Shown here: piece by piece, positions 28,664 to 34,729 of the stretch
Numbering within the stretch: the stretch's first letter is position 1
How the letters are laid out: every line of letters begins with the position of its first letter
Assembly: GCA_020853525.1 (NCBI GenBank)
Contig: JADYYS010000053.1
Location: 1-64,000, forward strand
From: Ardenticatenales bacterium
GTDB lineage: Bacteria; Chloroflexota; Anaerolineae; Epilineales; Epilineaceae
Reading direction: 5' to 3'
Length of the DNA stretch: 64,000 nt
Notes under the pieces: generated by a model
What the model was told of the DNA's origin: nothing
The model's database searches: none
The model's input: the letters and a program-made list of their open reading frames with translations, nothing else
Position numbers and translations under genes: made by a program

Positions 28664-28720
28664 TCAGTTGTCGGCGTTCCGACCGCGAGGGTTGTGAGAG
28701 GGTTGTGAACGCAGGGAGGA

Positions 28721-28740
28721 GGGCACGGCATGCCGTGCCC
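28721..28740. repeat. Perfect 20-bp palindrome, REP-like
   Basis: GGGCACGGCATGCCGTGCCC is a perfect palindrome followed by CTAC. From memory, sequences of the form GTAGGGGCACGGC are common dispersed repeats in many environmental genomes. Here it lies in the leader of the next gene. Confidence 0.7.
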
Positions 28741-28839
28741 CTACACGTCGATCATCGTGAAGCCGTCGGTTGCGTAGGGTCGCCAACGCAGCGATCACCC
28801 GACGTGCGATTGCGAACGCATTCCACCCGGAGGACCCAC

Positions 28840-31800
28840 ATGCTGCACTTCTTCCACCGCACCCCGCGCGTCCGCGCGCTCGCCGCCGTGCTCGGCGCGC
28901 TCGTGCTCCTCGCCGGCCCCCGCCCACCCACCGCCGCACAGTCCACGCCGCCGCTCCGGCTCGAGGCGGATCTCTGGGCGTCCTGGGTCTCGGTCCCGGC
29001 CCTGCCCGGCCAGTTCGTCGAGGCCGAGGTCCGTCGCCCGAACGGAAGCCGGCTGATCGGCGTCGGCAGCGGGGACGCCGACGGGCGGGCGGTGCTCGAT
29101 CTCTTCAACCCCGAGGGCGGTCAGGGCGGTCCGGCGGCCGTTCAGCCGGGCGACACGGTGCGGATCGCCCAGAGCGGCCGTCGCCCGCTCGAGATCGTCG
29201 TGCCGGGGCTCTCGGCCCGTGTCGACGCGGCCGCCGATCGCCTGTCCGGGACGGCGCCGGCGGGCGCGAGCGTGTCGATCCTGGCGCAGCTCGAGTTGAC
29301 CGGTCCGGACGGCACCGTGCTGTGGCGCGACGTTCCGACGCAAGCCGTGGCCGGCCCGGACGGCGCCTGGAGCGTCGACCTCCGCGCCGAGGGCGTCGAT
29401 CTGCCGGCCGGGCGGACGCGCGGCCGCGCCTGGATCGAGACGGTCGACCACGACCGGTTCTTCGCGCGCTTCAACGACGTCCGCCTGGACGCCACGCTCG
29501 GCGCATACGAGGTCCGGGGGCTGGCAACGCCGGGTCACCGCGTGCGCGGCACCATCACCCACGCCGACGGTTCCACGACGGCGCTGCCCGAGCGCACCGT
29601 CATCGGCGACGGGGCGTTCAGCCTCGGCGCGGCGGGCTTCGGCCGCTTCGGCCCACCCCCGCCCGACGCGCGACCGCTGCGCATCGGCGACCGTATCGAG
29701 CTGACGGTGACCGGAACGGGCAGCGGTGAAGTGGCGGCCCTCACCCTGGTCCTGCCCGAAATCGCGGTGTCGATCGACGCTTCGGCCGACCTCGTCCGCG
29801 GCACGGCGCCGGCCGACACCGACGTGCGCGTCGAAGCCACATCGCTCGACGGCGTGCAGTCCGTTCGCGTCGCCCGCACCGACGCCGGCGGGGCGTTCGC
29901 GGCGGACTTCCGCGGAACGGTGGACCTCGGGCCGGGCTGGCTGGCCAAGGTCAGCGTCGAGCCGTCGCCCAGCACGTCGGCCGGCGCCGTGGCCGTCGTA
30001 CCGCAGGCACGCGTCGGCGTCGGGCTGACGTCCGTGCGCGGCTTGGCCGACCCGGGGACGCCGATCACCGTTACGCTGCGCGGGCCGAACGGGGCCCAGC
30101 GGCGGATGGAGCCGGCGCTGGCCGGCGCAACCGGGAGTTGGACAGTGAACCTGGCCGATTTCGTGCCCGGCGGCGGCGACGAGGTCGAGGTTCGTGCCGG
30201 CGACCGCATCGAGATCACCTCCATCGACGGGGACCCGGCGGTGGCCAATGTGCCGACGCTCACCGCGCTGGCGGATGCCGACGCGGACAGCGTGGGCGGG
30301 ACGGCGCCGCCCGGTGCGCGGCTACGCGTCGTCGCGGAGGGCCGGAGCGTGAACGCAACGGCCGACGGGTCGGGTCGCTGGACGGCCTCCTTCGCCGGCA
30401 CGCTCGACGTGGCGGCGCCCATGGGCGGCGAGGTCTGGCTGGAGGACGGCGCGTTCGCGTTCTACACAACGTGGTCGGTCGTGCGGCTGAACGTTGAGCT
30501 CGGCGGCAACTTCGTCACCGGCAACGGCCCGCGCGGCCGGGCGATCGACGCCGTGCTGCGCGACGCCGACGGCAAGGTCGTGGCCACGGCGCACGGCCGC
30601 GTCTTCGATCGGCTCGCGTTCGGCGGGGCCGAGGTGATCATCATCGGCGCCGAGCAAGACAGCTTCTACCTCGACTTCCTCGACCTGACCGGCGCGTCGG
30701 TAGCGATCGAAGCCGGCGACGTCCTGCAGGTGACGGCGGGCGATCAGACCGTCTCGTTCGTCGTCCCGGCGCTGGACGGCGCGGTGTTCGTGGCCGACGA
30801 CGTGATCAGCGGCCGCACGCGCGCCGGCGCCACCGTCCGCATCCGCGTCCAGCGCGACGATGCGCCGGCCGCCGAGGCGACGACCACGGCCGGTGCCGAC
30901 GGGACGTTCAGCCACCGCTTCGCGCCCGGCGTCGACCTCCTCTACAACGACTTCGTCCAGCTCGAAGCCGACGTGAGCGGCCACCGCGTCTCTCGCTACG
31001 TCGGCAGCCCGGGCATCCAGGTCGACCTCGACCGGAACACCGTCCAGGGCCAGATCGCGCCCGACGCCCGCGTCCGCATCGAGGCCAGGCGTGGCGGTAC
31101 CGTCTTGGCCGGCGTCGAGTCACAGACCGGTCCGCTCGGGTTCTACTTCGAGACGCTGAGCGGCGCAAGCGGACGCCCGCTGTCGCTGCAGCAAGGCGAC
31201 GTCGTGACCGTCACCACCATCGAACCGTCCGGCACGGCGCTGTCGATGACGCTGCCCGAGCTGACGGTCGACGCGGACGAGGCCACGAACACTGTCGGGG
31301 GGCGTGCGACGCCCGGCGGCTCGCTGGCCGTCCTGGCGAACGACCAGGTCGGCGACACCGCGCTCGGGTTCGGCCAGGCGTGGCCCGAGATCGTCCCGTC
31401 CGGAAGCTGGCAGGCCGACTTCGTGCCGGCGCTGCGCGTACGGCCCGGGCTTGCGGTGAACGCGCAGTATCGGACGCCCGAGGGGCACATCGCCCTTCGC
31501 ACCCGCATCGTGCCGCTCCTCAGCGCCGAGCACGGCGGCGCGAACGTCTGCGGCTGGTCTGCACCGTCCGGCGCCGTCCGCGCCGAACTGCGCGACGTCG
31601 CGGGGCGGGTGAAGGGCAACGGCGAGACGGAGGGCGCATGGTGGGACGGCGCGTTCCACGCCGTGCTGCGCGACGACGCGGGCGCCGCGGTCACATCCGC
31701 GACGAGCGAGACCGTCTCGGCCGATCTCAGCGGCACAGCCGTCCAGGTCGCGCTGCCCGGACTCGATGTTGCAATGGACTGGACGACGCGCCGGCTGACG

Positions 31801-32883
31801 GGCACCGTCCCGCGCGGTGTCGCGCCCGAGATCCAGTTCCCGGCGCTGCGCTGCGGCGGCAACCTGGACGTGAACGGCCCGAGCCTCCGCGTCGGCTTTC
31901 GCCTCCGCTTCGGCGCCTCGCCCGACGGCCGGGTCGACTCCGAGATCCCGCTCCCGATCGAGGCCGGCCAGGGCTTCGAGATCGCGATGCGCACCGCCGG
32001 CGGCCATCGCGTCTTCAAGCAGTTCTGGCGGAGCCAGATCGAGGTCTATCTGGACACGCCGCGCGCCGCCGGTACGACGAACAGCCAAGCGGCCGTCACG
32101 CTCACGCTGCGAGGCGCCGACGGCGCCGTGAAGGGCACGGCCGGCGGCACCGCCGACCCGTCCGGACGCTTCGACCTCGACATCGTCGATGCCGCCGGCG
32201 CGCCGGTCATGATCGCCGCCGGCGACACGCTGACGGCCGTCGGCGGCGGCGACAGCGCTGCGGTGCCGATCGACGCGCTCAGCTTCGACTGGAGCCCGGG
32301 CGGCCCGGTCTCCGGCCTCGCGCCCGCCGGCCGGGACCTCCGCCTCACGCTGCGCCTGACCGACGGCCGCCGCCTGTCGCTCCCGCGCACCGCCGACGCG
32401 AACGGCCGCTGGGCCTTCACCGCCGACGAGGTGCCGGTGCGCGGCGGGTGGACGCTCGACGACGTGACGGCCGTGCGCGCGGCGCTCTTGACGGCCGGAG
32501 GGCACAGCATCATCGACCAGTCGAGCGGGTTCGAGGCGCCGGACGAGCCGCCGGCGGAGCGGGGAGGGGTGATCTACTTGCCGGCGTTGCTGGCGAAGGC
32601 GACGCTGGGCGGGACGCGGGCGGTCGCCGGCAACCCGGCGGCAGCCCATCGATCGTCGGTTGTTCGGCCGAGCCGCCCGTGGGCAGACGGGCCGCCGTCC
32701 GTGCCCGACGTCGTCGCCGGCACACTCCTTGTGGTCGACGAGGCCGGCGGCCAAGCCGATCGACCGGATCGCCTGCTCATCGACGATCGTCGCCCCAGCG
32801 CGCGGCGGGGCGTATCATCGTCGCCTGAACTTGCGACGCGGCCGATGCTCGAACGTCAGGATTCCTCGCCGGCGCGTCCATGA
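28840..32883 (+). CDS. Giant secreted protein of repeated Ig-like modules with internal hYLP motif
   Basis: The 1347-residue product starts at an ATG with GGAGG six bases upstream and has a signal peptide ending near TAAQ (residue 35). It is built of about ten repeated beta modules of roughly 100-110 residues. Each has a strand like VDAAADRLSGTAPAGASVSI, IDASADLVRGTAPADTDVRV or ADADSVGGTAPPGARLRV, resembling bacterial Ig/adhesin folds. The motif GGVIYLPALLAKATLGG comes near residue 1247. Some 100 further residues of low-complexity sequence follow, unlike the other hYLP proteins, which end within a few to about 15 residues of the motif. This tail may be a read-through after loss of the original stop. 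The protein is probably cell-surface bound; no enzyme motif was seen. Confidence 0.82.
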   Translation: MLHFFHRTPRVRALAAVLGALVLLAGPRPPTAAQSTPPLRLEADLWASWVSVPALPGQFVEAEVRRPNGSRLIGVGSGDADGRAVLDLFNPEGGQGGPAAVQPGDTVRIAQSGRRPLEIVVPGLSARVDAAADRLSGTAPAGASVSILAQLELTGPDGTVLWRDVPTQAVAGPDGAWSVDLRAEGVDLPAGRTRGRAWIETVDHDRFFARFNDVRLDATLGAYEVRGLATPGHRVRGTITHADGSTTALPERTVIGDGAFSLGAAGFGRFGPPPPDARPLRIGDRIELTVTGTGSGEVAALTLVLPEIAVSIDASADLVRGTAPADTDVRVEATSLDGVQSVRVARTDAGGAFAADFRGTVDLGPGWLAKVSVEPSPSTSAGAVAVVPQARVGVGLTSVRGLADPGTPITVTLRGPNGAQRRMEPALAGATGSWTVNLADFVPGGGDEVEVRAGDRIEITSIDGDPAVANVPTLTALADADADSVGGTAPPGARLRVVAEGRSVNATADGSGRWTASFAGTLDVAAPMGGEVWLEDGAFAFYTTWSVVRLNVELGGNFVTGNGPRGRAIDAVLRDADGKVVATAHGRVFDRLAFGGAEVIIIGAEQDSFYLDFLDLTGASVAIEAGDVLQVTAGDQTVSFVVPALDGAVFVADDVISGRTRAGATVRIRVQRDDAPAAEATTTAGADGTFSHRFAPGVDLLYNDFVQLEADVSGHRVSRYVGSPGIQVDLDRNTVQGQIAPDARVRIEARRGGTVLAGVESQTGPLGFYFETLSGASGRPLSLQQGDVVTVTTIEPSGTALSMTLPELTVDADEATNTVGGRATPGGSLAVLANDQVGDTALGFGQAWPEIVPSGSWQADFVPALRVRPGLAVNAQYRTPEGHIALRTRIVPLLSAEHGGANVCGWSAPSGAVRAELRDVAGRVKGNGETEGAWWDGAFHAVLRDDAGAAVTSATSETVSADLSGTAVQVALPGLDVAMDWTTRRLTGTVPRGVAPEIQFPALRCGGNLDVNGPSLRVGFRLRFGASPDGRVDSEIPLPIEAGQGFEIAMRTAGGHRVFKQFWRSQIEVYLDTPRAAGTTNSQAAVTLTLRGADGAVKGTAGGTADPSGRFDLDIVDAAGAPVMIAAGDTLTAVGGGDSAAVPIDALSFDWSPGGPVSGLAPAGRDLRLTLRLTDGRRLSLPRTADANGRWAFTADEVPVRGGWTLDDVTAVRAALLTAGGHSIIDQSSGFEAPDEPPAERGGVIYLPALLAKATLGGTRAVAGNPAAAHRSSVVRPSRPWADGPPSVPDVVAGTLLVVDEAGGQADRPDRLLIDDRRPSARRGVSSSPELATRPMLERQDSSPARP

Positions 32884-32904: not shown

Positions 32905-33978
32905 ATGACGACGTCGGTGCGAGGGCTGGGTCGCGGGCTGCCGTGGCTCGGCATCTTCCATCTGCTCGTGTTGTACGTCGTCTGGAGCACGACCTATCTG
33001 GCGATCAAGGTGGCCGTCGAGCCGGGCAGCGGCTTCCCTCCGTGGTCGATGGCCGGCTCGCGTCTCGTCTGCGCCGGGCTCATGTTGCTGGTTATCGCCA
33101 AGGTCCGCCGCCACTCGTTGCGGCTGACGCGGCGCGATGTCGCGATCCTGGCGGCGACGGGTCTCCTGTTGTGGATCGGCGGCAACGGGCTCGTCACGTG
33201 GTCGGAGCAGTACGCGGACTCGAGCTACGCCGCGTTGCTCGTCGGCGCGATGCCGATCTGGGGCGCGGTGATGGAGGGTGTGCTCGACCGGCGGCGGCCG
33301 TCGCTGGCCCTCGCCGCGGCGCTCCTCGTCGGCTTCGCGGGGGTGGCGGTGCTGACGGTGCCGAAGCTGATGTCGTCCCACGGCGCCGACCTCGTCGCCG
33401 TCGTCGCGCTCCTGTTCGCCCCGCTCCTGTGGGGCAGCGGCGCGCTGCTGCAGAGCCGGCGGTCGGTGTCGGTGTCGTCGCTCGTCAGCGCCGGGTGGCA
33501 GCAGGTCTTCGGCGGGGCGATGTTCGTCGTGCTGTCGCTGGCGGCACGGGAGCCGCTGCCCCACCCGACGCCGACCGCGCTGGCCGGCTGGGCGTACCTC
33601 GTCGTCGTCGGCGGCCTGGCGTTCTTCTCGTTCGTCCTGGCGCTGCAGCTCCTGCCGGCGCGGCTCGTCTTCACGTACGCCTACGTGAACCCGGTCGGCG
33701 CGGCGCTGCTGGGATGGTGGCTGCTCTCCGAACCGATCACGTGGTGGACGGTGCTCGGCGCGGTGCTCGTGATCCTGGGGGTGGCGGGCGTGTTCCGCGA
33801 GCGCTACCGGGCACGGAAGGCGAGCGGGGCCGCGCACGACGTCGTCGCCGCAGCGGATCCGATGCCGACACCGTTAACGAGCACCGCCGAGGCCCTCGCG
33901 GACCTCGGCGGCGTGGCAGGCGGGACAGGAATCGAACCTGCAACCTCCGGTGTTGGAGACCAGCGCTCTGCCAATTGA
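32905..33978 (+). CDS. EamA (DMT) family transporter
   Basis: A 357-residue membrane protein with ten predicted helices in two five-helix EamA repeats (LLVLYVVWSTTYLAIKVAVE and LLFAPLLWGSGALLQSRRSV begin the two). These permeases export amino acids, purines or metabolites or import sugars; the substrate is unknown. AGGAGAG precedes the ATG. The last 20 or so codons (GTGIEPATSGVGDQRSAN) are antisense to the tRNA-Trp gene, and the TGA lies inside that tRNA. That stretch is unlikely to be part of the protein's original fold. Confidence 0.88.
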   Translation: MTTSVRGLGRGLPWLGIFHLLVLYVVWSTTYLAIKVAVEPGSGFPPWSMAGSRLVCAGLMLLVIAKVRRHSLRLTRRDVAILAATGLLLWIGGNGLVTWSEQYADSSYAALLVGAMPIWGAVMEGVLDRRRPSLALAAALLVGFAGVAVLTVPKLMSSHGADLVAVVALLFAPLLWGSGALLQSRRSVSVSSLVSAGWQQVFGGAMFVVLSLAAREPLPHPTPTALAGWAYLVVVGGLAFFSFVLALQLLPARLVFTYAYVNPVGAALLGWWLLSEPITWWTVLGAVLVILGVAGVFRERYRARKASGAAHDVVAAADPMPTPLTSTAEALADLGGVAGGTGIEPATSGVGDQRSAN

Positions 33979-33989
33979 GCTACCCGCCT
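33914..33989 (-). tRNA. tRNA-Trp (CCA)
   Basis: On the minus strand the sequence folds into a complete cloverleaf. The acceptor stem is AGGCGGG/CCCGCCT, the D-arm GCTC...GAGC and the anticodon stem CTGGT/ACCGG (one T-G pair), with loop CTCCAAC giving anticodon CCA. The T-arm is GCAGG TTCGATT CCTGT. Discriminator G and an encoded CCA end follow. A promoter with TATAAT lies 30 bases upstream. Confidence 0.97.
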
Positions 33990-34189: not shown

Positions 34190-34729
34190 CTACGACGGCC
34201 GAACATACCCGTGGTCCGCCAGCCGTCGCCCGCTCTCGTCGAACGCCGACAGCTCGCGCGGCGTCCACGTGCCGAGGCCGTCGACGTAGCGGGTGAACAT
34301 GCTGAACGCGGCGGCGACGAGGACGGTGTCGTGGATCGCCTTGTCGTCCGCCCCTTCGGCCCGCGCCGCATCGATGTCGGCCGGCGCGACGGTCGTCGGG
34401 TCGCTGCGGACCTTGTCGGCGATGGCCAGCAGCGCGTGCAGCCGGGGGGTGATCGGGGCGGTCTCCCAGTCCTGGTTCACGAGATCGACGATCCCGCTGT
34501 CCGCGCCGAGCAGGTGCTTGGCGGCAGAGCCGTGGGAGGCCATTCAGAAGAAGCAGTTCTGCCGCGACGAGACGAAGCTGGCGATCAGCTCGCGCTCGCC
34601 CGGGCTGAGCGAACTCGGTCCGCGCAGCAGCGCCTGGGTGAAGGCGCCGAGAGGCGCGCCGGTCTCGGGATGGGCCGCGAGCAGCCCCGAGATGCCGGGC
34701 AGGCCGTCGGGGACGGGGATGTAGGCCAT
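34190..34729 (-). CDS. AhpD-like peroxidase-related protein, candidate selenoprotein (CxxU)
   Basis: The frame of 179 residues is interrupted only by a TGA at 34544-34546. Before it reads LSPGERELIASFVSSRQNCF-F, after it MASHGSAAKHLL. In AhpD/carboxymuconolactone decarboxylase-fold peroxidases this place is the redox motif E...CxxCxxxH; here C59-F-F-[UGA62]-M-A-S-H66, so the UGA stands exactly for the second catalytic Cys. Sequence on both sides is intact and fits the peroxidase-related family (start MAYIPVPDGLPGISGLLAAHP). The ATG at 34729 has AGGAG seven bases upstream. The simplest reading is selenocysteine. Alternatives are a nonsense mutation or a sequencing error. No selenocysteine machinery lies in the window. 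Confidence 0.8.
34505..34525 (-). promoter_or_regulatory. Possible bacterial SECIS stem-loop downstream of the UGA
   Basis: Starting 19 bases after the UGA, GCCG pairs with CGGC and AGC with GCU around an ACCU loop, with a 3-nt bulge. The apical loop is about 30 bases from the UGA, in the range of bacterial SECIS elements. The loop lacks the usual early G, so support is modest. A second, smaller hairpin (CGGC-UCU-GCCG) competes closer to the UGA. Confidence 0.3.

Follow-up and report, generated by a model that had tools for sequence, protein, structure and literature searches.

The window analysed here, a stretch of 64,000 nucleotides, carries on the minus strand at 34190–34729 a gene of 179 codons with one in-frame TGA (34544–34546) that is read through in the full-length translation. 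Profile searches place the product in the AhpD/CMD family, with 34.6 bits against PF02627 (cut-off 23) and 87.2 bits against the peroxidase-related model TIGR01926, above its curated cut-off of 81.8. Translation of the minus strand gives the motif C59-F-F-U62-M-A-S-H66, in which the TGA, a predicted selenocysteine (Sec) codon, supplies residue 62 at the second position of C-x-x-[C/U]-x-x-x-H, and the Cys59 codon (34553–34555, minus strand) supplies its partner in CxxU. A sequence-only reading of this region had proposed an AhpD-like gene with this TGA as its sole interruption; the scores above cut-off confirm the first point, and the 179-residue translation, with its single in-frame stop, the second.

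Upstream of the focal gene lies a divergent, unassigned gene, and downstream a tRNA-Trp gene followed by a convergent gene encoding an EamA transporter. No operon partner is evident within the window, and a glance at the unannotated open reading frames around five orthologues revealed no obvious shared partner gene. The EamA transporter frame (32905–33989, plus strand) extends approximately 65 bases into the opposite-strand tRNA-Trp gene and terminates there, so that its final residues are antisense tRNA sequence. The region at 28705–32883 encodes a large predicted protein that matches a bacterial Ig domain (PF17936).

To characterise the sequence on either side of the TGA, we compared the focal protein with orthologues from named genome contigs. 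This search yielded 80 sequences with 49–61% identity to the focal protein, nearly all of them full length (about residues 1–179). Since the alignments run through the TGA from one end of the protein to the other, the two halves constitute one gene. Among columns with a conservation of 90% or more in the orthologue alignment, the focal protein retains 18 of the 21 upstream of the UGA and 36 of the 42 from residue 62 (itself counted) onwards, and the GC content at third codon positions is 0.93 upstream and 0.94 downstream. In a truncated pseudogene, decay past the stop codon would be expected, whereas conservation and GC3 are even on both sides here; pseudogene decay is thus rejected, and the other damage to the gene that would have spoken against the earlier interpretation was not found.

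The residue aligned with position 62 is Cys in 74 of the 80 orthologues and is encoded by TGA in the other six, a number that may be an undercount because a peptide with Cys was among the search patterns. This agrees with the earlier placement of the UGA at the second Cys of the CxxCxxxH motif. The complete C-x-x-C is present in 69 orthologues, where the second Cys is encoded by TGC in 58 and by TGT in 11. Cys59 is invariant in one alignment (A1) but is replaced in five of the 80 orthologues, all of which keep the second Cys; from their sequences, these five fit the view that the second residue would be the catalytic one. All six TGA orthologues are found in metagenome-assembled genomes of Planctomycetota, share the motif C-V-F-U-M-[QEH]-A-H, are 54–58% identical to the focal protein and reside in genomes that encode SelA (6/6). 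The same UGA in relatives, for which the sequence-only reading had advised a search, is therefore present as an identical codon in these orthologues, and also in many paralogues. The prevalence of Cys forms nevertheless lends weight to a different explanation, namely that the codon is in truth, or was until recently, TGC or TGT, and that the TGA arose through a mistake in metagenome assembly or sequencing or through a nonsense mutation of very recent date, so that the gene either encodes a Cys enzyme or has only just become a pseudogene. A single change converts TGC or TGT into TGA, and the closest match to the focal protein by identity (61%) is itself a Cys form. However, a random change would have to strike one codon in 179, precisely the one at which six orthologues and many paralogues carry UGA.

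Further evidence on this point comes from the host genome (4.27 Mb, 96.85% complete), which is a draft of 76 contigs, a circumstance that again favours a Cys codon obscured by error. Against this, the genome encodes the entire Sec machinery, including each of the four components that the sequence-only reading had suggested seeking: a tRNA-Sec (selC; 68.3 bits) with the anticodon UCA and, as determined by profile searches, SelA (537 bits), SelB (325 bits) and SelD (362 bits). Since two other members of the host's taxonomic family have both SelA and SelB, contamination of the draft is an unlikely source of these genes. The host SelD gene (contig 30, 144400–145326, minus strand) carries a UGA of its own in the context CAG-U-ASK, the usual catalytic position, and is thus a selenoprotein candidate in its own right. 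Given this machinery, and a gene without other damage, we consider it improbable that the TGA stands in for a Cys codon.

The adjoining tRNA-Trp gene brings to mind another alternative, in which ribosomes pass the UGA by some means other than Sec, such as near-cognate insertion of Trp or Cys, or terminate there to deliver a deliberate 61-residue product. The anticodon of this tRNA-Trp is the ordinary CCA, however, and since a tRNA-Sec is also present, recoding of UGA as Trp is rejected. Moreover, the 117 codons past the UGA are conserved like those preceding it, and position 62 is either Cys or Sec in all 80 orthologues. Bypass or programmed termination is accordingly very hard to credit.

CxxU proteins of this type are not confined to the orthologue group. 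The host genome encodes a second AhpD selenoprotein candidate, a paralogue (L041; contig 36, 63301–63705, minus strand) with a TGA at the same site, in the motif CLYUTRAH, and more distant CxxU AhpD paralogues occur widely across the class and phylum of the host. A separate AhpD subfamily of the same phylum, represented by 13 sequences, is characterised by the motif C-x-[FY]-U-x-x-x-HGA[VM]A; a SECIS-like hairpin was present just past the UGA in all three members checked (L125, L128 and L153).

We enumerated simple hairpins downstream of the focal UGA under a permissive bacterial SECIS rule that places the loop 16–37 nt past the UGA and calls for a G within the first two loop positions, limits that follow the published bacterial model. 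The best candidate (34493–34514, minus strand) consists of a 6-bp stem and a 10-nt loop that starts 35 nt after the UGA (CCUGCU-CGGCGCGGAC-AGCGGG), with a predicted stability of -5.9 kcal/mol. Synonymous-codon resampling of the focal sequence produces an equally good hairpin in 31% of cases, and in 15% of the Cys orthologues there is one of equal or greater stability. The hairpin is therefore no better than chance, and we regard the SECIS evidence for the focal gene as neutral rather than supportive. The stem-loop put forward in the sequence-only reading (34505–34525, minus strand) does exist, and its ACCU loop lacks the early G, as had been stated, but its stem is broken (3+3 bp with mismatches) and weak. 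In the Planctomycetota UGA orthologues a 7-bp hairpin (ACUGCUC-GGC-GAGCAGU) starts at the same offset as the focal one. Within the host, the L041 paralogue has the hairpin CGACCUC-CGUGCC-GAGGUCG, and SelD has GGCGCA-CGUGC-UGCGCC and GGGCC-CGGA-GGCCC; these look clearer than the focal hairpin, although the resampling figure is that of the focal sequence. The CGUG loop seen in L041 and SelD is absent from the focal hairpin.

Rfam SECIS_1 has no match in the host genome but equally none in 14 control genomes, which makes this result uninformative. Scanning the region against Rfam with a permissive E-value returned chance matches only. The want of a distinctive SECIS counts in favour of both a lost Cys codon and a UGA that is bypassed or terminates translation. 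Known bacterial SECIS elements vary. In a published comparison, the SECIS-based program bSECISearch missed at least 13% of the known selenoprotein genes in the genomes on which it was tested (PMC12013277). Tentatively, Sec might be inserted here by means of an atypical or very weak SECIS, with the host SelB tolerating departure from the CGUG-loop hairpins of the host's other selenoprotein genes, a possibility that we rate as rather doubtful.

Taken together, the position of the UGA in the motif, the complete Sec machinery, the orthologues with UGA at the same site and the undamaged reading frame support the candidate selenoprotein proposed by the sequence-only reading. We conclude that the focal gene is very probably a genuine selenoprotein gene in which Sec is actually incorporated at the UGA. 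Such doubt as persists concerns a sequencing error or recent mutation and the undistinguished SECIS.

An AlphaFold2 model of the focal protein (pLDDT 93.5, pTM 0.91, 33 aligned sequences) has the all-helical AhpD/CMD fold with an active site of the CxxCxxxH type, and U62 is located at the start of a helix spanning residues 60–77. The top Foldseek matches are AhpD-like; those in the PDB (2oyo, 6k40, 3c1l and 2prr), with TM-scores of about 0.7–0.8, are also found by sequence search. These solved peroxidase-related proteins resemble the focal protein in fold and are 25–32% identical to it across the active site, but the two for which the sequence is shown, 2oyo and 3c1l, have Cys at the second position in place of U62. 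In AhpD, peroxide is attacked by the second Cys of the CxxC motif. If the UGA is decoded as selenocysteine by SelA, SelB, SelC and SelD, the resulting active site would be C59-x-x-U62-x-x-x-H66. By analogy with AhpD, the U62 selenolate would attack peroxide or another oxidant, a selenenylsulfide between U62 and C59 would then form, and a cellular dithiol would reduce it. The focal protein is thus likely to be a thiol/selenol-dependent reductase of peroxide or a related oxidant, with U62 as the attacking residue and C59 as its partner.

Regarding the origin of the gene, the nearest relatives of the focal protein are found in Planctomycetota, Acidobacteriota and Bacteroidota. In the phylogenetic tree it branches close to the base of the orthologues on a long branch, with no clear grouping with the six Planctomycetota Sec forms, which counts against the selenoprotein reading. 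A search of 396 genomes of the host's class gave no orthologue, the matches there being paralogues with 39% identity or less. This absence suggests horizontal acquisition of the focal gene as the simplest reading.

In 2005, AhpD-like CxxU proteins, with 27 sequences, were already counted among the new selenoprotein families of the Sargasso Sea (PMC1088965); such proteins were also abundant in the Global Ocean Sampling data (PMC2398784), and a 2026 review gives them as TIGR01926, CxxU (PMC13188914). These reports are in line with the sequence-only reading, which had described AhpD-like Sec proteins as known in some bacteria. The focal protein resembles this family (TIGR01926/COG2128) in its score above the model cut-off, the predicted Sec at the second Cys, the Sec machinery of its host and the mixed distribution of Cys and Sec forms; it differs in its weak SECIS hairpin and in having its closest orthologues in Planctomycetota, Acidobacteriota and Bacteroidota. 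It also shares an AhpD core and CxxU with NF041238 (AhpD_rel_CFYUT (seleno)protein), to which its similarity is significant (41.7 bits), although this score is far under the 175-bit equivalog cut-off and covers only the second half of the 357-position model. Its N-terminus is shorter than that of the paralogue type in the same genome. The AhpD-like CxxU selenoprotein type has thus been known since 2005, and the focal gene adds one well-supported case. Standard gene callers would misannotate such a gene as truncated or broken. Furthermore, the occurrence of a weak SECIS beside clear ones in one genome offers a possible test case for the minimal structure that SelB needs.
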